This document shows, piece by piece, positions 1,739 through 17,789 of a stretch of DNA of 64,000 nucleotides. The notes under the pieces were generated by a model. That model was given only the letters and a program-made list of their open reading frames with translations, was not told where the DNA came from and did no database searches. Source of the DNA: Pseudovibrio exalbescens (lineage in GTDB: Bacteria; Pseudomonadota; Alphaproteobacteria; Rhizobiales; Stappiaceae); NCBI RefSeq assembly GCF_028737195.1, contig NZ_JAQZAJ010000001.1, forward strand, positions 1-64,000, in the 5' to 3' direction. A program made the translations under genes and the position numbers. Numbering within the stretch: position 1 is the stretch's first letter; each line of letters begins with the position of its first letter.

Positions 1739-2455
1739 TCAGGCCATGGCCCGTTCGAGCCTTTGCTTCCGACGCTCCCAATCGGGCATCACCTTGTCGA
1801 GAAGGTCAAAGAACGCCGCCCCGTGATGAGGCTCGGCCACATGGCAGAGTTCATGGGTGATCACGTAGTCAATGGCGTCGACAGGGGCCTGAACCAGACG
1901 ACGATTGAGTAGCAAACGTCCGGCCGGTGACATGGACCCCCATCGCTGCCGGGTCTGGCGTACGATGAGACCCATCGGCCTGAATGCCTCGGGATCCGGG
2001 AACAGACCGAGACAGAGTTCGATCCGTTCCGGAAACTTGATGTGGGCCCGGTCCCGGTACCATGCCTCGACCAGTTCGCGTGTCACCTCCGGCCTGGTCG
2101 GTCGGTGAGTCTGCACGACGATGAAGCCGCGGATCAGCTTCACGCTTTCCTGAACATGCGGGACGACCTTCAGCCGGTATTGGCGCCCGAGGTAGAGATG
2201 AGTCTCCCCTGCGACGAACCTGCGCTCCGGCGTGCGCGGCAGGAACTGGGAGAAGTACCGCTGCTGCCTTGTCACCCATGCCGCGCGCTTCCGCAGCTTG
2301 GCTTCGATGGCGTCTAGTGTCGCGTCCTCCGGGGCCGCGATCACCACCGACGCATCCGGCTCGACGGCGATTTCCAGTGTCTTCCTCCTGCGCCGGACAA
2401 TCTCGTACTGGATCTCCTGTTCGCCGTACCGCAGGCAGTGCAACTCCCGTGTCAT
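1739..2455 (-). CDS. YgjP-like (DUF45) zinc metalloprotease domain protein
   Basis: This 238-residue protein ends in the zinc metalloprotease signature HELCH (residues 201-205), with the third ligand His at 210 or 211 and the family motif QRWGS near 170-174. YgjP/DUF45 proteins are predicted cytoplasmic SprT/WLM-like peptidases often found next to type I restriction genes; their substrate is not established. The start ATG (2453-2455) overlaps the stop of hsdR (2452-2454) in an ATGA junction, so it is the last gene of the restriction operon and probably co-translated. All metal ligands are intact. Confidence 0.88.
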   Translation of the reverse strand: MTRELHCLRYGEQEIQYEIVRRRRKTLEIAVEPDASVVIAAPEDATLDAIEAKLRKRAAWVTRQQRYFSQFLPRTPERRFVAGETHLYLGRQYRLKVVPHVQESVKLIRGFIVVQTHRPTRPEVTRELVEAWYRDRAHIKFPERIELCLGLFPDPEAFRPMGLIVRQTRQRWGSMSPAGRLLLNRRLVQAPVDAIDYVITHELCHVAEPHHGAAFFDLLDKVMPDWERRKQRLERAMA

Positions 2456-5400
2456 GCCGCGAACCGGGCCCGCGCAAGATCCATAATCTTGAGTTCGAGA
2501 TCGTCGAGCACTTCTACGGGCAGGTCGATGTCCTTCTCGTCGCGCAGGACATCGAAGAAGTAGTCATCAATGGCGTTGCGCAGATTGTTCTGGGCCACCT
2601 CATTCGACCAGATATCCACGATCAGGTGCGATTTGATGATGTCGATGATCTGTTGAGCGATCGCTGCGACCTCGACGCCGGTCACTGAATCATCGCCCTT
2701 GGTCTTGAGCTGACCATCTAGGACGCCGAAGAAGGCCTGCGCATCCTCATCGCCCCTAATGCTCTCCGGAACATCCCGCCCCCGATCCTTGCGGGCCACC
2801 TTGCTCGCGAGATCCACGACACTGTTGAGGTATTCGCGCTCGGAGAGCCGCTTTTCGCGGTAGGCCCGGATGGTCTCTTCGAGCAGCTCGGAGAACTGTT
2901 TGTAGAACGTCGGGTCCTCATCCATCTTCTCGGTGATTGCCCGCCGGGTCGCACTGGCGATGCGATCGGCCTTTGAGGCCTCGGAAACCCCCGTTTCCTC
3001 GATGACAGCCTTAAGCGCGTCGGGATCGTTGATGTTAACCACCTCGATGATGGTCTCCGCCGGCATTGCCACGACGTGGTCATCAAGGAGCTTCTGGATC
3101 TTCGGCTCGAACTCGCGGACATCGACCGTCTCCTGGTAGCGGAGCTGGACCGAGCGCTTGAGTTCGGAGAACTGTTTCCAGTCGCGTTTCAGGGAATCGA
3201 TCTTGGCCTCGTCAAAGACGTCGAAGAGCTTGTCGGACGAGAGCAAGATGTGCAGGCACCGGCTGAAGGCTTTGAGGCGCGCGTAGAACTCGTGCCGTAG
3301 CGCCTCATCGGCGAGGTGCTGTTCGAACTGCTCCATGTCCTTCTTGTTCCGGACAGGCTTGAACAGGTCCCAGAGCTGGTCGTGCAGCTGGGGCAGCTTG
3401 CGGATTTCCTCGCGGACGTCATGAACCGTTCCGGCGAGGTCGGCCGCCTCGTAGCCTTCGAAGGCGCTGTATGTCGTCAGCGCACTGTCCAGCTCGCCCA
3501 GCAGCCCCTCATAGTCGACGATGAAGCCGAACTGCTTCTCAGTGCCGCCGTCTTCATACAGCCTGTTCACACGCGCAATTGCTTGCAGGAGGTTGTGCTC
3601 CTTCAAGGACTTGCAGACGTAAAGCACCGTGTTCCGAGGTGCGTCGAAGCCGGTGAGGAGCTTTGAGACGACGATCAGGATCTCCGGATCGCCGGAGCCC
3701 TTGAAGGCATCGATGATCTGTCGGTTGTACTCGTCCTCGGTCTTGTACCGCGCCATCATCTTTGACCAAAATTTCCGCACGAGATCCTTCGATTCTTGAT
3801 CGACCTCCTCGTTGCCCTCGTTCTCGTCCGGCGGGGAGATGACAATGGCACTCGAGACGTGGCCGATCTCGTCGAGAACCTCCTTGAAGCGGACCGCCGC
3901 CGCCTTAGACGGGGCAACGAGCTGCGCCTTGAAGCCGGTCCCTTGCCAGTGCTGGCGATAGTGCTCGGAGATGTCGAAGGCCTTTGCTTGGATGGCCTGG
4001 TCGGTCTTGGCCAACGCGTCCATCCGAGAGAACTTGCGCTTCAGATCGCGCTTCTGGTTTTCGGTCAGCCCCTCGTTGATCTTGTCGAACCATCGGTCGA
4101 TGACGGCACCCGAGACCTGCTGCTCGACAAGCCGCCCTTCGTAGAGCAGCGGCACGATGGCGCCGTCGGCGATCGCCTCGTCGATGGCGTAGCGGTGGAT
4201 TAGCCGCCCGAAGGTCGACAGCGTGTTCTTCTCCTTCTTCAGCAGGGGCGTGCCGGTGAAGCCAAGGTAGCAGGCCTTAGGCAGAAGGCGTCGCATCTTG
4301 GCGGCGAACTGGCTGTGGCCGCCGTAGCGACCCGTCTGCGTCCTGTGGCTCTCGTCGATCAGCACGAAGATGTTCGGATCGCCGTCCGCCAGCTTGCTAT
4401 GCTTCAGCGCAGTGTCGAACTTGTTGATGATCGTGGTGACCAGCGGAGCCTTGTTCTGGACAAGCTCCAGTAGGTGAGACCCGCTCGTAGCACGGACTGG
4501 CTCCAGATCGCAGGACTTGAAGGTGTCCTTGATCTGCTTGTCGAGATCGTCACGGTCCGTGACGATGATGATCCGCGGGTTTTCGATGCTGCGTTCGAGG
4601 GCGAGCGATCTCCCCAGCATGACCATTGTCAGCGACTTGCCTGAACCTTGGGTGTGCCAGATCACGCCGCCCTTGCGCGCGCCGCTGATATCGTGCTGCT
4701 TGACCGTCTCGACCGCGCGGCGGATTCCGAAGAACTGCTGGTGGCGCGCGACCTTGCGAATGCCGCCATCGAACACGGTGAAGCGGCGGATGAGATCGAG
4801 CAGCCGCGCGGGTCGGCACAGCGCGTACACCGTCCGATCTTGAACCGTGACCGCGCGGTCTCCTTCTGCCTCCATTGAGTCGAAGTAGACGCGCGCGCCG
4901 ACGAAGTCGCCAGAAAAGATCGAGTCTTTTTCGGCCGCCGCAAGGACGCGGTTGGCGAAGGGCGCAATGGCCTCGTCGGTGTCTTCCTCGTCGCGCCATT
5001 CGGCCCAGAATTTAGACTTGGTCCCGACCGTCGCATAGCGCGCGCTGTTGCGGTTCATAGAGACCAGCAGCTGGGCGAAGTGGAAAAGCTGCGGGATGTT
5101 GTCTTCGTTCTGGTAGCCAATCAGCTGGCTGTCCGCCTTCTTCAGGCTTTCGGTCGGCCGCTTATTTTCGATCACCAGGATTGGAATACCATTCACGAAG
5201 GCAACGATGTCGCAGCGCTTGGTCTGGCTGGACGCGGTCCTCTCCACCGAAAACTCGGCAGTCACGTGGAAGACGTTGTTCTCAGGCTGGTCCCAGTCGA
5301 TGTAGCGGAATGAGTAGCTCTTTGAGTCGCCGTCGATGGACTTCGTGATCGTCGTCCCGAGTACGAGCGTGTCGTAGATGTCCTGGTTCGTCCCACGGAG

Positions 5401-5667
5401 CCCCTTCAAACGGTCCGGCGTGGGTTTGAGCCGCCGCATCGCCTCGTGCGCGTCCTCAAGGTCAAAGCTGTATTCTCTTCCCCGATGCGTGAAGCGGTTG
5501 ATGCGCATCAGCTGGTCGGCGAGCACGTCATCCAGCACCACGTTCCGCAGGCGCCCGCCGCGCAGGCGAAGCGCCTCCTCCTGCGACAGTGGGGTGAATC
5601 CAAGCGCAACCAGCAACTGAAGTGCTGGGACTTGAGATTGGTGTTTTTCGGCGGCGTTGAAGGTCAT
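2452..5667 (-). CDS. hsdR: Type I restriction endonuclease subunit R
   Basis: This 1071-residue motor-nuclease has the expected order: an N-terminal nuclease domain with Asp153 and the ENK motif (Glu167, Lys169), a Walker A (HTQGSGKS, about 338-345), DESHR (438-442) and TGTP (471-474) of the superfamily 2 translocase, then a helical C-terminus. It would cut unmodified DNA after ATP-driven translocation once bound to an M2S core. I chose the ATG at 5667 because it overlaps the kinase stop in an ATGA junction and begins the conserved part; the frame stays open 63 codons further upstream inside the kinase gene. The gene looks intact, but its HsdM partner is truncated. Confidence 0.95.
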   Translation of the reverse strand: MTFNAAEKHQSQVPALQLLVALGFTPLSQEEALRLRGGRLRNVVLDDVLADQLMRINRFTHRGREYSFDLEDAHEAMRRLKPTPDRLKGLRGTNQDIYDTLVLGTTITKSIDGDSKSYSFRYIDWDQPENNVFHVTAEFSVERTASSQTKRCDIVAFVNGIPILVIENKRPTESLKKADSQLIGYQNEDNIPQLFHFAQLLVSMNRNSARYATVGTKSKFWAEWRDEEDTDEAIAPFANRVLAAAEKDSIFSGDFVGARVYFDSMEAEGDRAVTVQDRTVYALCRPARLLDLIRRFTVFDGGIRKVARHQQFFGIRRAVETVKQHDISGARKGGVIWHTQGSGKSLTMVMLGRSLALERSIENPRIIIVTDRDDLDKQIKDTFKSCDLEPVRATSGSHLLELVQNKAPLVTTIINKFDTALKHSKLADGDPNIFVLIDESHRTQTGRYGGHSQFAAKMRRLLPKACYLGFTGTPLLKKEKNTLSTFGRLIHRYAIDEAIADGAIVPLLYEGRLVEQQVSGAVIDRWFDKINEGLTENQKRDLKRKFSRMDALAKTDQAIQAKAFDISEHYRQHWQGTGFKAQLVAPSKAAAVRFKEVLDEIGHVSSAIVISPPDENEGNEEVDQESKDLVRKFWSKMMARYKTEDEYNRQIIDAFKGSGDPEILIVVSKLLTGFDAPRNTVLYVCKSLKEHNLLQAIARVNRLYEDGGTEKQFGFIVDYEGLLGELDSALTTYSAFEGYEAADLAGTVHDVREEIRKLPQLHDQLWDLFKPVRNKKDMEQFEQHLADEALRHEFYARLKAFSRCLHILLSSDKLFDVFDEAKIDSLKRDWKQFSELKRSVQLRYQETVDVREFEPKIQKLLDDHVVAMPAETIIEVVNINDPDALKAVIEETGVSEASKADRIASATRRAITEKMDEDPTFYKQFSELLEETIRAYREKRLSEREYLNSVVDLASKVARKDRGRDVPESIRGDEDAQAFFGVLDGQLKTKGDDSVTGVEVAAIAQQIIDIIKSHLIVDIWSNEVAQNNLRNAIDDYFFDVLRDEKDIDLPVEVLDDLELKIMDLARARFAA

Positions 5668-6740
5668 TTTCCGGTCACCACGAATTGCTTGAAGCCCGAG
5701 ACGAGCTTTTCCGCCTGCTTCTGGGTGAGACCCCGTTTGCAGAACTGAGTGACACGCTGGGTATTGCCTGAGACCACATTGCGCTTGCTGCAGGTCACAT
5801 CGAACTTCCCGCCTGCCACTGGCAAGATTGAGTGCGAGAATTCGTATGTCCCGCATTTGCCGACTTCGTTGCTGGATGCATCGACGGTCCAGTGCCCAGG
5901 GTAATCCAGCTTTTCGAGCGCGCGCCGCATCTCAAGAGCGCTGGTGTGCCGCTTGGCCGGATCGGGATGGACGGCCTTGAGGATGACGCGACGAACGGCT
6001 GCCGGGATGTGGCACCCGAAGTCCTTTGCCTGAAGCAGCTTCCCCGATGCGATGTCCTGTTCGTACTGCGTCGATCCGATGCTGGCGCGGACTGCTCGCA
6101 GGTGGTCCAGATGGATCAACAGCCTCGCCAGGGTCATCCCGACTTGGAAAATTTCCGAGCTGACGCCGATATTTCCTGTGGCCACGACCTCTGGTGCACG
6201 GTGAAGGACATAGGCGTTCGGGGCCGCAACCGGTGCGCCGTTGGACGAAACGCCAGTGATCCCGTAGTCGGACAGCATTGCCTGTTGCTGGGGCCCCAGC
6301 AGGATGTTCCCGGGCTTGATGTCGTTGTGATAGAAACTGCGGGCGTGGAGATACTCCAGCCCCTGCAGGATATCCCGCGCGATCCGCAGGACGGCAGGGA
6401 GAGGCAGATAACCAGACGGGTTCGCCAAGGTCTCGACCGAACCGTTAGGTTGGTAGTCCATGGCGAGGATAACGGCATGATCCCCGGCCACGGGAACAAC
6501 ATCGGCCTGGTGGATGTACACGAGGTTGTTGTGTTCAAGGCGGTTGCCGATCTGGGCTTCGCGCAGCCGCTCGTCGACCGACACCCCCGGCTGGAGGACT
6601 TTCACGGCATACTCACGCTGCACAGCGACGTCATGCGCGAGCCAGACCTCTCCGAAGCTGCCTGCACCGATCTTGCTGACCAGATGGTACTTGTAGAGGT
6701 TCATGCCGGGGCTGAGGGTTACGGGAACAAGCTGGTTCAT
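5664..6740 (-). CDS. Serine/threonine protein kinase embedded in the restriction operon
   Basis: This 358-residue soluble kinase has the glycine loop GAGSFGEV (25-32), catalytic Lys47, helix-C Glu61, catalytic loop HNDIKPGN with Asp140, and DYG (158-160) in place of DFG. HND instead of HRD marks a non-RD kinase, a class usually not dependent on activation-loop phosphorylation. A cysteine-bearing extension of about 85 residues follows the kinase fold. No membrane segment is visible. The start at 6740 overlaps the upstream stop (ATGA) and its own stop overlaps the hsdR start, so it is translationally coupled on both sides. A role in phosphorylating a restriction subunit is inference. Confidence 0.9.
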   Translation of the reverse strand: MNQLVPVTLSPGMNLYKYHLVSKIGAGSFGEVWLAHDVAVQREYAVKVLQPGVSVDERLREAQIGNRLEHNNLVYIHQADVVPVAGDHAVILAMDYQPNGSVETLANPSGYLPLPAVLRIARDILQGLEYLHARSFYHNDIKPGNILLGPQQQAMLSDYGITGVSSNGAPVAAPNAYVLHRAPEVVATGNIGVSSEIFQVGMTLARLLIHLDHLRAVRASIGSTQYEQDIASGKLLQAKDFGCHIPAAVRRVILKAVHPDPAKRHTSALEMRRALEKLDYPGHWTVDASSNEVGKCGTYEFSHSILPVAGGKFDVTCSKRNVVSGNTQRVTQFCKRGLTQKQAEKLVSGFKQFVVTGK

Positions 6741-7204
6741 GGGTGACGCAGCCCCCACCATGCTGCATTCACAGCGTCAGCCATCTTGGTGTCCCAATAC
6801 TTTTCGGTCTTGCCGACACGGCTTTCTGCGTGCCGCTTGGTGTCTTTGCTGGTCGTCCCCATCGAGCCATAAATCTTGATTTCGACCGGGATGTCGCGAT
6901 GGGCGCAGGCGAGGACGACAGCCGCGTCATTGTAGGCCGAACGGCGCTTTGCCTTCGTGTCCTGGCGAGTGAATTCGTTTTGCTTGATCATCACCTTGTT
7001 GATGCCCGGGTGCGCATCAAAGACCGCCAGAAGCTCGCGGTACATCCAGTCCAGCCGCTCGGCATCCGCATCCTCGGTGATTGATGCGGGGACAGATAGC
7101 TTGTTGTCGCTGGTGGCGTTCTCCAACACATAGGCCCCGCCAACCTCCGACACGACTGCGTACCGAGGGGCTTTAGGGTCGCCGCGAAATCCAAGAACCT
7201 TCAT
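6737..7204 (-). CDS. RuvC/RNase H-like protein (DUF3010-like)
   Basis: This 155-residue protein starts with a short strand (MKVLGFRG), has a central VMIKQNEF segment (about 71-78) and a late KMADAVNAAWWGL helix (140-152). That pattern resembles the RNase H-fold RuvC-like DUF3010 family, in which acidic residues bind metal. Glu77 and Asp143 sit at plausible positions, but the first-strand acid usual for resolvases is missing, so nuclease activity is uncertain. ATGA overlaps with hsdS before it and the kinase after it show it belongs to the restriction operon. Function unknown; the fold assignment is moderate. Confidence 0.6.
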   Translation of the reverse strand: MKVLGFRGDPKAPRYAVVSEVGGAYVLENATSDNKLSVPASITEDADAERLDWMYRELLAVFDAHPGINKVMIKQNEFTRQDTKAKRRSAYNDAAVVLACAHRDIPVEIKIYGSMGTTSKDTKRHAESRVGKTEKYWDTKMADAVNAAWWGLRHP

Positions 7205-8433
7205 GCCAATTCCTTTTCTGAATTCACCCGCCACTCGCCCGTCAGCAGCTTTTGCATGAGGCCGCGTTTTTGCAGGGTGACCGCTTCAATCTCGCGCTCG
7301 GTCGCGGCGAGGTCGTCGCGTGCAGTGTTCAGGACGGCGGCGATGGCTTTCTGCTCGTCCAGCTCCGGCAATGGTAATTTCAGCGCGGCTAGGTCGTCGT
7401 AGTAGGTCCGTTGGCGCACGCTGCCGGAACCGCCGCTGTTGATGTAATGGGCCCACCAGGATGTTTTACGCAGGTGGTCGAGGTAATCGGGGTCGAGGCC
7501 ATCGGCATTGCAGGCGAAGACGACATAGTCGGGGCTTACCAGCACCTCTTCATCGCGCTCGTTCATCGCGATGGAACCAACATTGATACGCATCGGATTG
7601 TAGGCGAAGGCGCGCGGGGGAAGGCGCTTGTAGCGGCTGATGTCACCGGCAATCGTCTGTTCGCGCATGGGTATGACGCCTTGGGCCTTGGTGACCCCCA
7701 TTACGTAGTCGCGGCCGAGCCCCTTTGCCCCGTTTCGGGTGATCAGTTCATGTGTGACAGCGGCAAGGCGTGTCGGCACCCAATTGCGGCGCTGGTCGTC
7801 GAGGCGCAACACGCCGAAGAGCATCGCGTAGCGAAGTGCACCCAAGCGCTTGTCCTTCGCCGCGCGGAGAGTGGCGAGCTTTTCAAGCGCCTCGTCCCAT
7901 GTCTTCAAGATTGCGGCAATCATGCGCTGTTCGGGCAGTGAAGGCAAAAGAACTTCCACATCTGAAAGGTCAGGCGCATGAATATGGACGACGGAATGAC
8001 CTTTCCCGAAGCGAGCCTTTTGCCTGCATGCATGTTCAGAGTTTAGCGCGTGGGCGAGAAAAATTGGATCTTGGCCATGTTCGCGAAGAACTACAGTGTC
8101 ACCACCTACGTAAGCTGGTTCCGGCCCAGTGTATGCAACAGCCTTGCCTATCTCGTGGAGTGTTTCCCCAGAAGCCGCAAAAACAATGTCTCCAGTTCTC
8201 AGGACCTGCGCTGCCGATGCGGCTTCGTGCAAAACCCGTGATTTGAGGCAGGCTGTCGTGTTGCCGTAAGTTGAGTAGATTTCTCCATAGCGCAGACACG
8301 GATAGCCATCTTCCGACAAGTCAGAACGGGAAATCCCCTTGCCTTTTAGGAATCTGCCAATCTGGCCGAGTCGAACCAACATCGTATTATCTGCCAATTG
8401 ATCGTTGCCGTCATTGACGTCGTCGTCATGCAT
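7201..8433 (-). CDS. hsdS: Type I restriction-modification specificity subunit S
   Basis: This 410-residue protein has two target-recognition halves, each followed by a conserved helical spacer: PEQRMIAAILKTWDEALEKL in the middle and a similar DEQKAIAAVLNTARDDL near the end. Each half reads one part of a bipartite DNA site, and the spacers set the gap. I chose ATG at 8433; a GTG at 8439 is possible. It overlaps the hsdM stop by 8 bases, and its stop overlaps the RuvC-like start (ATGA). Two full halves mean it is not a half-S protein. It looks intact. Confidence 0.9.
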   Translation of the reverse strand: MHDDDVNDGNDQLADNTMLVRLGQIGRFLKGKGISRSDLSEDGYPCLRYGEIYSTYGNTTACLKSRVLHEAASAAQVLRTGDIVFAASGETLHEIGKAVAYTGPEPAYVGGDTVVLREHGQDPIFLAHALNSEHACRQKARFGKGHSVVHIHAPDLSDVEVLLPSLPEQRMIAAILKTWDEALEKLATLRAAKDKRLGALRYAMLFGVLRLDDQRRNWVPTRLAAVTHELITRNGAKGLGRDYVMGVTKAQGVIPMREQTIAGDISRYKRLPPRAFAYNPMRINVGSIAMNERDEEVLVSPDYVVFACNADGLDPDYLDHLRKTSWWAHYINSGGSGSVRQRTYYDDLAALKLPLPELDEQKAIAAVLNTARDDLAATEREIEAVTLQKRGLMQKLLTGEWRVNSEKELA

Positions 8434-9223
8434 CAACACCGAGCTCCTTCAGGTATCCGGCCATTTTCACCCGGACGTCCGCCAGGTCGGCTTCGATCCG
8501 CAGGATGTCTTTCTGCACAGCCGCGACGTCGATTTCTTCCTCCGGCTCGAAGGTGTCGACGTAGCGGGGGATGTTGAGGTTGTAGCCGTTCTCGGCGATC
8601 TCCTCAGGTGCCGCCAGATGCGAATACCGCTCGACCTCGGCACGGGCGCCGTAGGTCTCCAGCACCTTGGCCACGTGTGCCTCGTCCATAACGTTCTGGG
8701 TCTTGCCCGGCGTGAACTCCTTGCTGGCGTCGATGAACAGCACATCGCGCCGCTCCGCGTTCGCACCGCCTTCTTCGCGGGAACGGTCGAAGATCAGGAT
8801 GGCGACCGGGATCCCGGTGGTGGTGAACAGGTTGGCCGGCAATCCGACGACGGCGTCGAGCAGGTTCTCCTCGATCAACTGCTGACGGATGCGCCCCTCG
8901 GCCCCGGCCCGGAACAGCACGCCATGCGGCACGATCACCGCGACGCGGCCGGACTGGCGCTTGGCTATCTCGATCATGTGGGTGATGAAGGCGTAATCGC
9001 CCTTGGACTTGGGCGGCACACCGCGCCAGAAGCGGTTGTACTGGTCGCCGGCTGCGTCCTCCGCGCCCCATTTGTCGAGCGAGAACGGCGGATTGGCGAG
9101 CACTACGTCGAAGCGTTGGAGGTGGTCGGCCTCAACAAGCGCCGGGCTGTTGAGCGTGTCACACCATTCAATGCGGGCCGCGTCCGTTGCATGCAGGAAC
9201 ATGTTCATCCGGGCCAGCGCCAG
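8426..9223 (-). pseudogene. hsdM: Type I methyltransferase subunit M, 5' half missing
   Basis: The 260 readable residues from ATG 9208 to the stop at 8426 match the C-terminal half of HsdM: the catalytic NPPF (residues 39-42), the VPHGVLF segment and the C-terminal helix. Full HsdM is about 500 residues; the N-terminal helical domain and the SAM-binding motif are absent. Upstream of the ATG, HsdM-like codons (reading LALAR) continue only to about 9223, where an in-frame stop appears and phage methylase sequence on the other strand begins. The fragment probably cannot bind SAM, so modification should be lost unless an intact copy exists elsewhere. The operon promoter is also missing. Confidence 0.88.
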
Positions 9224-10976: not shown

Positions 10977-11537
10977 ATGGAGGGTCTGAGCGAGCGCCAG
11001 TATGCCGCCCGCGTCGGTCTCTCACGCGGAGCCATCCAGAAGGCCAAGGCAACGGGACGCGTGGTTCTGCATTCCGATGGCAGCATCGACGCGGAGGCCA
11101 GCGATGCGTTGCGTGCGCAGGCGACCGACCCGTCGAAAACCCGAAAGGCGCCGAAGGCGAAGCTCAAACCCGTGTCGGAGGCCGCAGTCTCGGCCGTGGG
11201 CGAAACGCTACGCGAGCAGGGAATGGCCGCACCGCAAGTCGGCAGCGGCACCACGTTCCTGCAGGCAAAGACGGCCAATGAGGTTCTGAAAGCGCAGGAA
11301 CGCCGTCTGAGACTGCAGAAGTTGAAAGGCGAACTGATCGACCGGGCTCGCGCGCTGTCGCTGGTCTTCCGGCTGGCGCGGCAGGAGCGCGACGTTTGGG
11401 TCAACTGGCCCGCACGGGCGGCGGCTTTGATGGCGGCTGATCTGGGCGTCGAGCCCGCCGCGATGCAAAAGGTTCTGGAGAAACATGTCCGTGCCCAGCT
11501 CGACGATCTTGCCGAGGTCCAAGCCGATCTCCGGTGA
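10977..11537 (+). CDS. Terminase small subunit
   Basis: This 186-residue protein has an N-terminal helix-turn-helix (LSERQYAARVGLSRGAIQKA, residues 4-23) like lambda Nu1, a charged linker, a helical oligomerisation part, and a C-terminal helix that would contact TerL. It recognises the packaging site on phage DNA. GGAG lies about 7 bases before ATG 10977. The last 53 bases overlap the TerL gene in another frame, a usual arrangement that couples translation. Confidence 0.85.
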   Translation: MEGLSERQYAARVGLSRGAIQKAKATGRVVLHSDGSIDAEASDALRAQATDPSKTRKAPKAKLKPVSEAAVSAVGETLREQGMAAPQVGSGTTFLQAKTANEVLKAQERRLRLQKLKGELIDRARALSLVFRLARQERDVWVNWPARAAALMAADLGVEPAAMQKVLEKHVRAQLDDLAEVQADLR

Positions 11538-13470
11538 GGACGACTTCGATGGCGCGGCCGAAATCCTGCGTGCCTGGAGTGAAGGCCTCACGCCGGATCC
11601 GGACCTGACGGTTTCGCAATGGGCGGATCGGCACCGGATGCTCTCAGGACGGGCATCGGCCGAGCCGGGGCGGTATCGCACCGCCCGCACGCCCTACATG
11701 GGCGAGATCATGGACCGGCTGTCGCCCGGCGATCCGACACAGCGGATTGTCTTCATGAAGGCCGCTCAGGTCGGGGCGACCGAAGCGGGTAACAACTGGA
11801 TCGGCTTCGCGATCCACCAGGCACCAGGGCCGATGCTCGCCGTCCAGCCCACTGTGGAACTGGCGAAACGGAACTCGCGGCAGCGGATCGATCCGCTGAT
11901 CGACGAAAGCCCGGAGCTGCGGGAGCGGGTCAAACCGGCGCGCTCGCGGGACGCGGGCAATACGATGTTGTCGAAGGAATTCGCGGGCGGCATCCTGATC
12001 ATGACCGGGGCGAACTCGGCGGTAGGTCTCCGCTCGACCCCGGCGCGCTACATCTTTCTGGATGAGGTCGATGCCTATCCGGTCTCGGCCGACGAGGAAG
12101 GCGATCCGGTCACGCTGGCCGAAGCCCGGTCCCTGACTTTTGCCCACCGACGCAAGGTTTTCCTGGTTTCGACGCCAACCATTCGGGGACTGAGCCGGAT
12201 CGAACGGGACTTTGATGCCAGCGATCAACGCCGGTTCTTCGTGCCTTGTCCGCATTGCGGTGCGATGCAGTGGCTGAAATTTGAACGGCTGCGCTGGCAG
12301 AATGGGCAGCCGGAAACAGCGGAATATCACTGCGAGGGCTGCGACACGCCCATTGACGAACATCACAAGACGGCCATGCTAGAGGCTGGCGAATGGCGGG
12401 CGACCGCCACGGCAGCGGATCCCAATACCGTCGGCTACCACCTCTCGGCGCTCTATTCGCCAATCGGCTGGCTCAGCTGGGAGCGGTTCGTGCGGGCCTG
12501 GGACGCGGCTCAAGGGTCGGACGAGGCGATCAAAGCATTCCGCAATACGATCCTTGGCGAGACCTGGGTTGAGACCGGAGAAGCGCCGGACTGGCAGCGG
12601 CTCTACGACCAGCGTGAGCGCTGGACATCCGGGATGGTGCCTGCGGGCGGGCTGTTCCTTACCGCTGGGGCCGACGTGCAGAAGGATCGGATCGAGGTCG
12701 ATGTTTGGGCCTGGGGCCGTGGGCTCGAAAGCTGGATCGTCGATCACATCGTGATCGAGGGCGGGCCCGACCGGCATGAGGCCTGGGCCGACCTGACCGA
12801 TCTGCTCAGACGGACATGGCCGCATGAACGCGGCGCGCATCTGAAGATCGCGCGGCTCGCCATCGACACGGGCTACGAGGCCCCGGCGGTTTATGGCTGG
12901 TCGCGGGCTCAAGGATTTGCACAAGTCTCGCCGGTCAAGGGCGTGGAAGGGTTCAATCGGGCAAGCCCGGTGTCGGGGCCGACCTATGTGGATGCGACCG
13001 AGGGCGGCAAACGTCTGCGTCGGGGCGCGCGCCTCTGGACCGTGGCGGTGTCGACCTTCAAGGCCGAGACCTATCGCTTCCTGCGGCTCGAACGGCCGAC
13101 CGAGGAGGACATTGCCGCCGGGGCGGCGTTCTCGCCCGGCACGGTGCATCTGCCGCATTGGGTCGAAAACGAATGGCTGAAGCAGTTCGTGGCCGAGCAG
13201 CTGGTCACCGTGCGCACGAAGCGCGGCTTCGCAAGGCTTGAATGGCAGAAACTGCGCGAACGCAACGAGGCGCTGGACTGCCGCGTCTATGCCCGCGCCG
13301 CCGCCTGGATCGCGGGCGCGGATCGTTGGACCGACGAAAAATGGCGTGACCTCGAGGATCAGCTTGGGGTCGCCGACGTCTCTGCGGATCCCGCGGGACA
13401 GATCAACAGACAAGCACCGACATCGCAGGGCAAACGCAGATCTGACTGGCTCGGGCCGCGCGGAGGGTGA
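11485..13470 (+). CDS. Terminase large subunit (lambda GpA family)
   Basis: This 661-residue packaging motor has a Walker A-like segment KAAQVGATE (92-100), Walker B YIFLDEVDAYP (189-199), a zinc-finger-like CPHCG...CEGC pair, and a C-terminal nuclease domain with LAIDTGYEAPAVYGW. It pumps DNA into the prohead and cuts it at the ends. Length and motifs are as in GpA proteins, and no break is visible. ATG at 11485 follows TGGAGAAAC. It is the first intact gene of the rightward head operon. Confidence 0.95.
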   Translation: MSVPSSTILPRSKPISGEDDFDGAAEILRAWSEGLTPDPDLTVSQWADRHRMLSGRASAEPGRYRTARTPYMGEIMDRLSPGDPTQRIVFMKAAQVGATEAGNNWIGFAIHQAPGPMLAVQPTVELAKRNSRQRIDPLIDESPELRERVKPARSRDAGNTMLSKEFAGGILIMTGANSAVGLRSTPARYIFLDEVDAYPVSADEEGDPVTLAEARSLTFAHRRKVFLVSTPTIRGLSRIERDFDASDQRRFFVPCPHCGAMQWLKFERLRWQNGQPETAEYHCEGCDTPIDEHHKTAMLEAGEWRATATAADPNTVGYHLSALYSPIGWLSWERFVRAWDAAQGSDEAIKAFRNTILGETWVETGEAPDWQRLYDQRERWTSGMVPAGGLFLTAGADVQKDRIEVDVWAWGRGLESWIVDHIVIEGGPDRHEAWADLTDLLRRTWPHERGAHLKIARLAIDTGYEAPAVYGWSRAQGFAQVSPVKGVEGFNRASPVSGPTYVDATEGGKRLRRGARLWTVAVSTFKAETYRFLRLERPTEEDIAAGAAFSPGTVHLPHWVENEWLKQFVAEQLVTVRTKRGFARLEWQKLRERNEALDCRVYARAAAWIAGADRWTDEKWRDLEDQLGVADVSADPAGQINRQAPTSQGKRRSDWLGPRGG

Positions 13471-13478
13471 TTTTGAAC

Positions 13479-13688
13479 ATGACGGACTGGACGGAATCCG
13501 AGCTTTCGGCGCTGCGCCGTGCCTACGCCAGCGGCACGACTCGGGTCAGCTATGACGGGAAATCCGTGGATTACGGCTCGGCCGAAGATCTTCTGGCCCG
13601 GATTCGCACCATCGAACGCGCTATCGCCGGGACGGCAAGACCACTGCCGATCGCCGGCCTCGCGAGCTTCTCGCGTGGAGACCGCTGA
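13479..13688 (+). CDS. gpW-like head-tail joining protein
   Basis: This 69-residue protein reads TDWTESELSALRRAYASG, then VSYDGKSVDYGSAEDLLARI, the two-helix plus hairpin pattern of lambda gpW, which plugs the portal after packaging. I chose ATG 13479 because GGAGG at 13462-13466 is well spaced for it; a GTG at 13467 would have no room. It lies between terminase and portal, as in lambda. Confidence 0.8.
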   Translation: MTDWTESELSALRRAYASGTTRVSYDGKSVDYGSAEDLLARIRTIERAIAGTARPLPIAGLASFSRGDR

Positions 13689-15202
13689 TGTCGGCGAACT
13701 GGTTTGACCACGCCATAGCCTCGGTGGCACCGCGCACGGCGGCCCGTCGAGTCCTTGCCAGGCAGGCCTTCGAAACCCTTACGCGGGGATATGATGGCGC
13801 GGCCAAAGGGCGGCGGACCGAGGGCTGGCGCGCGCCGGGAACTTCCGCCGATACCGAGGTTGGCGTCGCCAAGGCGCTCTTGCGCGATCGCATGCGTGAT
13901 CTGGTGCGCAACAATCCGCAAGCGGCGAAGGCCGTGGCGGTGCTGGTCAACAACATTGTCGGCGCGGGCATCATGCCGCGCGCCGCCAGCGGCAATGACA
14001 AACTGGATCGAAAGGTCGATGCGCTCTTCGCGCAATGGTCGGACACGGCCGATGCCGACGGCCAGCTCGACTTCTATGGTCTGCAGACGTTGATCTGCCG
14101 CGAAATGGTCGAGGCGGGCGAAGTGTTGGTGCGCCGACGTTTGCGGCGGGCGAGCGATGGTCCGCCAGTGCCGCTGCAAGTGCAGGTGCTGGAGGCCGAC
14201 TTCCTTGACGCCACGAAATCCGGCGCGCTCGGCGCAGGACGGCTGGTGCAAGGGATTGAGTTCGACCCGGTCGGCAAGCGCCGGGCCTATTGGCTGCATG
14301 CCGAGCATCCCGGCGACGCCTATGGCGCATTGCAGAACGGGTTGAAGAGCCGTCCGGTCCCAGCGAGTGAGATCGCCCATGTGTATGAAAAGCAGCGCAC
14401 GCAGGCACGCGGCGTTCCCTGGGGCGCGCCGGTGATCCGCAGCTTGCGCGATCTTGACGACTACGAAGTGGCCGAACTGGTCCGCAAGAAGACTGAGGCC
14501 TGCGTGACCGCCATCGTCTTCGGCGACGAGGAGGCGCAGCAGGGCATCGCGCCCGCGGTGGTCGACGCCGACGGCAACCGGGTCGAGCAGTTCGAGCCCG
14601 GGCTCATCGCCTATGCCCGCGGCGGCAAGGACATCCGATTCAACCAGCCCGCCGCCACTGGCGGCTACGGCGAGTACAAGCGGGCCAGCCTGCACACGAT
14701 CTCGGCCGACTTCCGGGTGCCCTACGAGCTGCTGACCGGGGACCTGTCCCAGGTGAACTACTCCTCGATCCGCGCCGGGCTCGTGGAGTTCCGCCGAATG
14801 ATCGATGCGGTCCAGTGGCAGCTCTTCATCCCGATGTTCTGCGCGCCGGTATGGCGCTGGTTCACGGAAGCCGCATGGGCGGCGGGGCGCATCCCGACGC
14901 CCGACGTGCCGGTGGAATGGTCGCCGCCGAAGTTCGAGGCGGTCGATCCGCAGAAGGACGCGATGGCGGACCTGCTCGCCATCCGCTCCGGCACGATGAC
15001 GCTGGCCGAGGCCATTGCCCGGCAGGGCCGGAACCCCGACGCGGTGCTGGCCGAGATCGCGGCCACGAACGCCAAGCTCGACGAGCTTGGCCTCGTGCTC
15101 GACAGCGACCCGCGCCGCGTCACCAAGACCGGCAGTGCGCAAGCCAATGCGCCGGCGGACCCCGCGACCGGTCCGGACGACCAGGAAACGGACGCTGCCT
15201 GA
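13688..15202 (+). CDS. Phage portal protein (lambda gpB family)
   Basis: This 504-residue protein forms the dodecameric DNA gate of the head. The conserved central segment LLTGDLSQVNYSSIRAGL and the downstream FIPMFCAPVWRWF match lambda-type portals, and the N-terminal helical region with LVRNNPQAAKAV is also typical. ATG overlaps the preceding stop (TGATG). The gene appears intact, unlike the capsid gene that follows. Confidence 0.93.
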   Translation: MSANWFDHAIASVAPRTAARRVLARQAFETLTRGYDGAAKGRRTEGWRAPGTSADTEVGVAKALLRDRMRDLVRNNPQAAKAVAVLVNNIVGAGIMPRAASGNDKLDRKVDALFAQWSDTADADGQLDFYGLQTLICREMVEAGEVLVRRRLRRASDGPPVPLQVQVLEADFLDATKSGALGAGRLVQGIEFDPVGKRRAYWLHAEHPGDAYGALQNGLKSRPVPASEIAHVYEKQRTQARGVPWGAPVIRSLRDLDDYEVAELVRKKTEACVTAIVFGDEEAQQGIAPAVVDADGNRVEQFEPGLIAYARGGKDIRFNQPAATGGYGEYKRASLHTISADFRVPYELLTGDLSQVNYSSIRAGLVEFRRMIDAVQWQLFIPMFCAPVWRWFTEAAWAAGRIPTPDVPVEWSPPKFEAVDPQKDAMADLLAIRSGTMTLAEAIARQGRNPDAVLAEIAATNAKLDELGLVLDSDPRRVTKTGSAQANAPADPATGPDDQETDAA

Positions 15203-15215
15203 CGAGGATCCATCC

Positions 15216-15437
15216 ATGGAGCAGACGATCGAACTGCCGGCGTTCCGCCGGTCGGCGGAGCTTGCGCCGAACAGCATCGACCCGGAGACGCGCAGCGTCG
15301 AGGTGATTTGGTCGACCGGCGCCCGCGTGCGGCGCGCCGCGCTCTTCGGCGAGCCGCATGACGAGGAGCTGAGCATGGCGCCCGGGCATGTGCGGCTCGA
15401 GCGGCTGAACGCGGGCTCAGACATATCGAAGGATTGA
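15216..15437 (+). pseudogene. Prohead protease/capsid fusion, N-terminal fragment
   Basis: The first 66 codons after ATG 15216 match the start of the prohead protease part of alphaproteobacterial protease-capsid fusion genes (EVIWSTGARVRR, then HVRLERLNAG). Homology stops near 15414, and an unrelated tail of a few residues reaches the stop at 15435-15437. The catalytic residues of the protease are missing. The capsid end of the same gene resumes near 16415, so roughly 250 codons of the usual 650 have been replaced. Confidence 0.78.
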
Positions 15438-15489
15438 AACTCCGCTTTTTCGAACGTAGACTTCTTACAGCGCGAGAAAGGTGTTCAAT

Positions 15490-15693
15490 ATGGGTTTCCT
15501 CACGGATCACTGGCAGGTTATTTTCAGCGGAGTTGGAACTGCTTTTTTAGTTGCAATTGTTGGATACCTATTGAGACGAAGAAGACGTGACGAGCTGGCC
15601 GGCTCAAACCAAGATGCCAAAGCTGGCGCTGGCTCTCAAATCGTTCAGGCAGGCCGAGACGCCCAAGTCGGGGATTCTGGTAAAAAGGAGTAG
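15490..15693 (+). CDS. Small single-span membrane protein with IVQAGRDA motif
   Basis: This 67-residue protein has one membrane helix (about residues 8-28), an arginine stretch (LLRRRRRDEL) that should stay in the cytoplasm, and a C-terminal motif SQIVQAGRDAQVG. I chose ATG 15490 with GAAAGG upstream; a GTG at 15481 is also possible. The next gene, 4 bases on, carries the same motif near its N-terminus. The base composition is AT-richer than the flanking phage genes. I do not recognise a family; a membrane-anchored partner of the next protein is the natural guess. Confidence 0.65.
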   Translation: MGFLTDHWQVIFSGVGTAFLVAIVGYLLRRRRRDELAGSNQDAKAGAGSQIVQAGRDAQVGDSGKKE

Positions 15694-15697
15694 CTTG

Positions 15698-16366
15698 ATG
15701 TCGCAGTCAGCTAATGCCGGACATAGCAGCACAATCGTGCAGGCTGGCAGGGATGCAATTCTGGGTATCCCAAAGAGTCCTCCCAACATCCGACTAGTAA
15801 GGCTCGAGATCGATGATGATCAAACACACGGGACACTTCGGCAGAAACTAAATGTGATACTGAAGAACAATGGAGACTATTCTGCTTTCCTGCTTCGCGG
15901 GAGCCTGATCTGCTCTGGCAGCGCTACCATAAGGCTTTGTAACCAGATTGGAATGCAGTTCAGTTTGAGCAAGGCTGACTGGACATATGATGTTGACATA
16001 GATTCTGTTGATCCATCATTTGTAGGCCACCACTCCATAGAACCGAACGAAGTAGTGAATTTCAACGTAATGGTTGCTCGCGAGTCAGGTGGACATGAGC
16101 CAACCGTCTATCGAGCGCACCTAAAGTTTGATTTTGACGAGGGAGACAGCCTTGAGACGGATGATTTTCACCTAATGATATCTGGCCCTGTCGTCTGGCA
16201 GGGTGGCTTTCAGGCGAACGGACCATCGCCAGACGAGTGGGGAAATTGTCAAGCTGAAAATGTCCGCCGACTTCGTGAAATAGGTTTCGATTATCGCGAT
16301 CATATTCATCCCGAATCCAGAAAGTACGTCGAAGCGGTTGCTCCGGGGATATTTGACGACGAATAG
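15698..16366 (+). CDS. Unknown protein with N-terminal IVQAGRDA motif
   Basis: This 222-residue protein starts at ATG 15698 behind a strong AAAAAGGAG site. Residues 9-22 hold STIVQAGRDAILG, shared with the small membrane protein just upstream; the rest is strand-rich with no membrane segment (LNVILKNNGDYSAF, then NEVVNFNVMVARE), suggesting an immunoglobulin-like beta fold. The C-terminus is charged. Its composition and codon use differ from the phage head genes around it. The pair sits exactly where the protease-capsid gene is broken. Function unknown; a prophage-carried defence or exclusion pair is one possibility. Confidence 0.65.
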   Translation: MSQSANAGHSSTIVQAGRDAILGIPKSPPNIRLVRLEIDDDQTHGTLRQKLNVILKNNGDYSAFLLRGSLICSGSATIRLCNQIGMQFSLSKADWTYDVDIDSVDPSFVGHHSIEPNEVVNFNVMVARESGGHEPTVYRAHLKFDFDEGDSLETDDFHLMISGPVVWQGGFQANGPSPDEWGNCQAENVRRLREIGFDYRDHIHPESRKYVEAVAPGIFDDE

Positions 16367-16414
16367 TCGATACCTACAGATAGTCCTTTGGATTTACTTT
16401 GGCGGCCAAAAAAT

Positions 16415-17377
16415 CGCGCAAGCCCCCGCGGCCTCTCGCGCGACGAGGTGGCGACGCGGGCACTCCACTCGACCTCGGACTTCCCCGAGATCCTCGCCGC
16501 CGTCACCAACAAGACGCTGCGCCAGGGCGAGCCATTGTCCGCCATTGGTCCAAGGACAATGGCGAGCGAGGCCTATCCCCGGACCTTCATGCTGTTCTGC
16601 CGTCAGGTGCTTGCCACCGACTTCAAGGCGATGCACCGGGTCCAGCTTGGCGAGGCCCCGCAGCTGCTGGAGGTGAGCGAAAGCGGCGAGTTCAAGCGCG
16701 GGACGCTCGGCGAGAGCAGGGAGAGCTACAAGGTCAAGACCTATGGCCGGGTGGTCGCGATCACCCGTCAGACGCTGATCAACGACGACCTCGACGCCTT
16801 CACCCGGATCCCGGCGATGTACGGCAACTCCATCGCGCAGCTGGAGTCGGACGTTGTCTGGGGCATCATCACCGCAAACCCGGCAATGGCCGATGGCAAC
16901 GCGCTCTTCCACAACAGCCACAAGAACCTCGCGGGCACCGGCGCAGCGCTCGACGTAAGCAGCGTCGGTGCGGCCCGCGCGGCGATGGCCAAGCAGACGG
17001 GGCTGGACAAGAAAACCGTCCTGAACGTCCGTCCCGCCTTCCTGATCGTGCCCGCGTCGCTCGAACTGAAGGCCGAGCAGCTGGTCGCGCAGAACCTCGT
17101 GCCCGCCGCGACCTCCAGCGTCGTGCCGCAGTTGATCCGCACGCTCGCGCCCATCAGCGAACCGCGCCTCGACGCGGCCAGCGAGACCGCCTGGTATCTG
17201 GCGGCCAGCCCGAACCAGATCGACACCATCGAGTACGCCTATCTCGAGGGTCAGCAGGGTGCCTATATCGAGACGCGCAACGGCTTCGATGTCGACGGCG
17301 TCGAGATCAAGTGCCGCCTCGACTTCGGCGCCAAGGCCATCGACTGGTGCGGTCTTTACAAGAACCCCGGTGCGTAA
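16415..17377 (+). pseudogene. Major capsid protein part of protease-capsid fusion, 5' truncated
   Basis: From about 16415 the frame reads GLSRDEVATRALHSTSDF and continues through LESDVVWGIITANPAMADG and FGAKAIDWCGLYKNPGA to the stop at 17377, matching the capsid half of the protease-capsid fusion. The beginning of the domain and the whole protease centre are gone. In this frame the first possible start is a TTG at 16388, and an ATG near 16558 would lose more of the fold. The inserted cassette ends just upstream. A functional capsid from this copy is unlikely. Confidence 0.8.
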
Positions 17378-17453: not shown

Positions 17454-17789
17454 ATGAAAAACTACGTCCAGCCCGGCAGTACGATCTCCCTGACCGCACC
17501 CTATGCTGTGACCTCCGGCGATGGCTTGCTCGTCGGCTCCATTTTCGGCATCGCCGCCGGAGACGCCGCCCTGAACGATCCTGTCGAAGCCGCCCTGACC
17601 GGCGTGTTCGACCTCACCAAGGTTGGCTCGCAGGCCTAGACCGTGGGCGCGAAAGTCTATTGGGACGACACCAATAAGCGCACCACAAGCGTGGCCACAT
17701 CGAACACATTGATCGGCGTTGCAACGGAGGCCGTGGCCGGCGGGGCCGGTGACACCATCGGCCGGGTGCGCCTGAACGCGAGCTTCTGA
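17454..17789 (+). pseudogene. DUF2190 capsid decoration protein with in-frame amber codon
   Basis: The frame from ATG 17454 to TGA 17787-17789 encodes a full 111-codon DUF2190 protein (MKNYVQPGSTISLTAPYAV, then VGAKVYWDD and LIGVATEAVAGG), a small capsid decoration or cement protein. A TAG at 17637-17639 interrupts it where related proteins have Trp, consistent with a TGG to TAG change. Nothing else is shifted, so suppression would restore the whole protein. The final stop overlaps the next start (ATGA). Confidence 0.8.

Follow-up and report, generated by a model that had tools for sequence, protein, structure and literature searches.

What might two short genes do that share a motif and stand where the middle of a capsid gene should be? 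The locus lies in a 64,000-nucleotide stretch of the Pseudovibrio exalbescens genome (contig NZ_JAQZAJ010000001.1, positions 1 to 64,000; hereafter the window), in which a preliminary description had placed a two-gene cassette between protease and capsid fragments. Both open reading frames, each with an ATG start, proved to be real, and their surroundings form a prophage-like block with a terminase and a portal gene (Table 1). The gene expected next after the portal is a prohead protease-capsid fusion, which is intact in relatives and broken in the window. In a DNA comparison with four intact genes from the same bacterial family (genomes G028, G012, G008 and G086; loci L043-L046), homology ended at 15416 and restarted at 16416-16427, and the foreign stretch was therefore put at 15417-~16424; the cassette had been located in the right place, but its limits (15414-16415) needed revision. 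The 5' remnant of the fusion gene, ~70 codons long, is collinear with L044 and L046 as far as 15416, and the 3' remnant is 97% identical to G012 and G028 and matches positions 340-644 of the fusion-family profile phrog_4523. From the profile coordinates (6-72 and 340-644) and the DNA comparison, the loss amounts to ~930 bp or ~310 codons, instead of the ~250 codons first estimated. The insert is foreign DNA, and its GC content of 48.5% against 65% in the flanks bears out the AT-richness first reported.

Table 1. Features of the cassette and its surroundings (window coordinates).
Feature	Position	Strand	Remarks
Terminase GpA	11485-13470		Prophage-like block
Lambda-type portal	13688-15202		Prophage-like block
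5' remnant, prohead protease-capsid fusion gene	15216..15416	+	NF045541 1-49/634; phrog_4523 6-72/644
Foreign cassette	15417..~16424	+	Takes the place of ~930 bp of the fusion gene
Promoter-like site 5' of the pair	15434..15462	+	TTGAAA-17-TAGACT, 9/12 matches
67-aa one-helix membrane protein, proposed effector	15490..15693	+	ATG start; hydropathy 2.23
C-terminal motif copy, NQDAKAGAGSQIVQAGRDAQVG	15610..15675	+	Residues 41-62 of the 67-aa protein
222-aa partner, proposed cytosolic sensor	15698..16366	+	ATG start; full-length homologues 49% and 50% identical
N-terminal motif copy, SQSANAGHSSTIVQAGRDAILG	15701..15766	+	Head of the 222-aa protein
3' remnant with the major capsid domain	16425..17377	+	NF045541 325-634, E=1.4e-137

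The insert was checked for flanking repeats and for a surrounding transposon, and neither was found. A structural RNA (intron) was considered and rejected, with no match in Rfam and with a simple intron excluded because capsid codons have been lost. In the small gene 3' of the capsid gene, an in-frame TAG (17638-17640) replaces a codon that is W in relatives; with the capsid gene cut as well, the prophage has decayed. The same protease-capsid interval is deleted in a second genome of the family (L047, G082:C1, ~2262494-2264900; window equivalent 15171-16435), where the cargo is a ParA-like ATPase gene (AAA_31) in reverse orientation that is unrelated to the window pair. With this unrelated cargo in the same place, the interval seems prone to replacement. 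Within an in-frame insertion of the window's capsid gene that has no counterpart in relatives, we also noted a 31-bp stretch (16532-16562) with 9-bp inverted ends (CCATTGTCC...GGACAATGG), present as a single copy in the window and perhaps a small palindromic repeat element.

The 67-aa protein consists of a helix at residues 10-28 (VIFSGVG...), a basic RRRRR run and then the C-terminal motif. The charge distribution (positive-inside rule) favors a cytosolic C-terminal tail in eight of nine small proteins, so that the partner's motif can be expected to reach the tail. The 4-bp gap originally noted between the genes holds from stop to start, with a ribosome-site-like AAGGAG 5' of the second start. 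The promoter-like site upstream of the pair counts as weak because the scanned region contained two such sites against a mean of 0.8 (sd 0.9) in shuffles. For the 222-aa protein, sequence searches of Pfam, NCBIfam, PHROGs, PADLOC and PDB returned no family. An AlphaFold2 model built on no more than two sequences had a mean pLDDT of 59.6 (70-85 in its best parts); in it the head is disordered, with a short strand where the motif lies, and is followed by an Ig-like beta sandwich at ~28-163 and two C-terminal helices. Searched against known folds, the model resembled ApaG and the adaptin ear, a generic Ig-like sandwich (best Z 9.2 across 103 residues, rmsd 3.0), and from such generic matches to a predicted fold no function was assigned.

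The sharing of IVQAGRDA between the C-terminal end of the first protein and the N-terminus of the second, noticed at the outset, is exact, and the octamer forms the core of a longer match, 22 residues without gaps, between the 67-aa tail (NQDAKAGAGSQIVQAGRDAQVG) and the 222-aa head (SQSANAGHSSTIVQAGRDAILG). In 2000 shuffles of the tail the observed score was never reached (p=0.0005), and the tail scored 63 at the head of the 222-aa protein against at best 18 elsewhere in it. The motif match exceeded that of shuffles in all eight pairs tested (p<=0.001). Cognate motifs matched each other better than those of permuted partners (p=0.0018), and swapping within partner families only gave p=0.018, a modest result since related pairs are not independent. 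The general pattern is a C-terminal G-N-S-T-N-I-Q-x-G motif on a one-helix protein, with the same motif starting the next gene and conserved glutamines ~12 residues apart.

A first relative, annotated as hypothetical and 49% identical to the 222-aa protein over its full length, is encoded on the Azospirillum argentinense plasmid NZ_CP007795.1. Directly upstream, a gene missing from the gene table encodes a 56-aa one-helix protein with the C-terminus NSTNIQSGNDTKI, making a pair of 56 and 230 aa. The second relative (50% identity) is from Desulfovibrio sp. A2, where the preceding gene encodes a one-helix protein of 63 aa, its tail being NSINIQAGKDVII, and overlaps the gene of the 233-aa partner. 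The small proteins have little more in common than IFSG[IV]G at the helix start and the tail motif. No phage genes were seen around the Azospirillum and Desulfovibrio pairs, which argues for a pair that is independent of this capsid gene and, as far as the sequences tell, moves between phyla. Relatives of the 222-aa protein are rare, with a carrier in 1 of 87 genomes from the bacterial family and in 1 of 385 from the class, and a housekeeping role was rejected for this rarity. No relatives of the 222-aa protein were found in the viral contigs searched, tblastn of phages and plasmids with the small proteins gave no matches, as far as such a search can reach with short queries, and a DNA pattern for WIFSGIG had no hits in 190 alphaproteobacterial genomes.

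A DNA pattern for [DE]WIFSGIG, run over IMG/VR, led to the prophage contig L009, which encodes a 65-aa protein with the tail NSGNNSTNIQGGKNV and an overlapping next gene whose product begins NGQTIDSGDNSTNIQGKKV. Apart from the motif, this partner is unrelated to the 222-aa protein. The partners in L009 and in L022, both viral contigs, belong to the LPO_1073/Vpar_1526 family (NF045477; E=2e-83 and 2e-94), a 257-position domain with no match to the window partner and its homologues or in the window's own genome. Searches with the family in sampled genomes and with its protein in plasmids added four further loci, in genomes G505, G685 and G909 and in E. coli. A small one-helix gene with the tail motif lies just 5' of all six independent LPO_1073 genes (L009, L022, L040, L041, L042 and L058), and the partner begins with the motif; the E. 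coli small protein possibly has two helices, unlike the rest. A structure model of LPO_1073 reached a pLDDT of 34, and no reading is based on it.

The layout also occurs within single genes. At L015:368-1285, a membrane helix, a SQNIQAGRD motif (SQNIQAGRDVNI) and a ~240-aa domain are fused, the domain being a third kind of partner. At L016:3992-5659, the same helix heads PDC-M43A, a PADLOC phage-defence candidate combining the helix with a receiver-like domain, beside the histidine kinase PDC-M43B; this candidate defence pair lies on a viral contig just after tail genes. The N-terminal helix module of PDC-M43A, of the W-I-F-S-G-I-G type, weakly matches the window's 67-aa protein (E=0.016), and more closely its homologues (E=6.5e-6 and 3.4e-5) and other small proteins (E down to 1.2e-8). 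The window has neither a receiver-like domain nor an adjacent kinase, its 67-aa protein ending after the motif and its neighbor having no kinase match.

The genomic contexts of the pairs were then compared. Near-full matches to the E. coli pair, WP_000687980 and WP_000490525, were found in six records, and in all five inspected the pair stands between the replication endonuclease and portal genes of P2-like prophages. This gpA-gpQ interval of P2 is a hotspot of antiviral systems, with old and tin there in P2 itself (PMC9122126). In four of the five, the neighbors are full-length matches to PADLOC Hp1, Hp2 and Hp3 or the same accessions (profile check made in L042). In E. coli PEC422 other neighbors flank the pair, so it moves as a unit; one of these (L056:2917-3570) shows weak similarity (E=1.1e-5) to the HEPN protein that belongs to a defence reverse-transcriptase system. 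The G685 pair (L059, G685:C1:2606000-2620000) is found in an array of single genes separated by ~100-bp repeats, with a tyrosine integrase facing away, and for these features we read the array, from its sequence, as probably a chromosomal integron with the LPO_1073 pair as a cassette. The G909 pair is flanked by a tmRNA and a tyrosine integrase, and the G505 pair lies at most ~450 bp from a tRNA-Met gene. Outside L009 and L022, the copies of the pair have a higher AT content than the DNA around them. The pair thus recurs on the Azospirillum plasmid and in Desulfovibrio, and the same design in prophages, the P2 hotspot, an integron-like array and an island; homologues that stand separately, lack the motif or serve housekeeping were not found. 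The layout first suggested, a membrane effector and a sensor or partner coupled by a shared motif, is strongly supported by this recurrence, with the motif on both sides and an unrelated partner family using it too, and the finding is sound and wider than the preliminary description could show.

BASS pairs consist of a Bell effector, whose domain is a helical bundle with a hydrophobic helix, and an NLR encoded by adjacent genes (Dyrka et al. 2020, as summarized in PMC7889193 and PMC8086366), with the motif at the C-terminus of the membrane-targeting effector and at the N-terminus of the receptor encoded next to it. Amyloid signalling runs from receptor to effector: the motif at the receptor's N-terminus serves as template for the one at the effector's C-terminus, as in fungal NWD2/HET-S and as proposed for BASS (PMC7889193). 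Gene adjacency, motif placement on membrane protein and partner, Q/G/N-richness and a motif length of ~20 residues are common to BASS and the pairs described here. However, the window partner is no NLR (NACHT/NB-ARC with repeats) but a 222-aa protein matching nothing in Pfam or NCBIfam, the effector of the pairs is a bare transmembrane helix of ~65 aa (one helix and 67 aa in the window), and the pairs were found in Pseudomonadota, Desulfobacterota and phages. An [IV]-Q-x-G core followed by x-[DN] is shared with RHIM and fungal PP motifs, whereas most pair members carry an additional G-[DNS]-N-S-T stretch upstream. The fungal PP core NxGxQxGxN is kept only in its right half (Q-x-G-x-[DN]), the left half being absent, and the glutamines are ~12 residues apart against 7 in BASS3 (Q113/Q120; PMC9815663). 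Because of the half PP/RHIM core and the upstream stretch in most members the motif was not filed as BASS3, and as a family the pair would be placed outside BASS, as its partner sequence is not that of an NLR.

By analogy, we propose, with about even confidence, that the pair is a minimal NLR-free counterpart of BASS pairs: the partner would act as a sensor in the cytosol and hand on a cross-beta template to the effector in the membrane. It looks like a stripped-down antiviral self-destruct switch with an amyloid-like motif, and its BASS-like role would probably be abortive infection. The 67-aa protein would be held in the inner membrane by its one helix with the C-terminal motif in the cytosol, where the 222-aa protein, beginning with the same motif, would reside. 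On sensing an infection cue through the Ig-like domain, copies of the 222-aa protein would come together by their motifs, which would switch to a cross-beta form (RHIM/BASS-like) and act as a template for the motif of the membrane protein. The helices of the membrane protein would then cluster and perturb the membrane, and the cell would stop or die ahead of phage release. The missing NLR, the lack of a Bell-sized helical bundle, the half PP core and the glutamine spacing of ~12 speak against this reading at the sequence level. A literature search found no anti-phage assay of any member.

The main rival to BASS-like signalling is static docking, in which the motif would be a short homotypic beta-pairing tag that permanently anchors a soluble protein, for example for superinfection exclusion, with no amyloid templating or cell death. 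The same anatomy would be expected, and the fusions within one gene, at L015 and, for PDC-M43A, at L016, show that fixing a partner domain to the membrane for good is tolerated; however, a plain anchor would not need the Q/G/N-rich motif twice, once on each protein, and the BASS precedent has exactly this layout, and we consider docking rather unlikely. Less plausible still is a toxin-antitoxin system in which the small membrane protein is a toxin checked by the second protein binding through the motif. While a small hydrophobic one-helix protein encoded first and coupled with a larger soluble one, in mobile contexts including an integron-like array, would suit such a system, the partners are mutually unrelated (an Ig-like sandwich in the model, the LPO_1073 domain) with only the motif in common and carry no recognized antitoxin domain. 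That the pair is a passenger, neutral or selfish, which an illegitimate replacement left behind as the prophage was dying and which has no defence role, would agree with the decay of the host prophage and with the ParA-like gene in the same interval of G082, but is very improbable given that the pair has been kept at ~50% identity with frames intact across phyla and at non-phage sites and that the motif is retained on both proteins. The window copy itself could be mere cargo.

Accounts of bacterial amyloid signalling deal mainly with NLR receptors in multicellular bacteria. The BASS-like idea would become testable in standard phage assays with a minimal pair, less than 300 residues in total, that unicellular bacteria, E. 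coli among them, have in their phages and mobile elements, and this reading would suggest a function for the uncharacterized LPO_1073/Vpar_1526 family and a role for the PDC-M43A helix module. More tentatively, and somewhat short of even confidence, we suggest a widespread NLR-free amyloid-signalling class in bacteria and phages, in which one interchangeable one-helix effector would be coupled through its C-terminal Q-x-G motif to sensors of unrelated folds and would travel as antiviral cargo in prophages, integrons and islands. Whether amyloid signalling operates outside NLR pathways in bacteria was posed as an open question (PMC7889193), which such a class, if true, would answer with yes.

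Elsewhere in the window, a type I restriction operon was found on the minus strand (1739-9208). Between its hsdR and hsdS genes is a Ser/Thr protein kinase gene (5664-6761) with best PADLOC matches to mad6 and PD-T4-6, and hsdM, at the edge of the prophage block, is without its N-terminal part.
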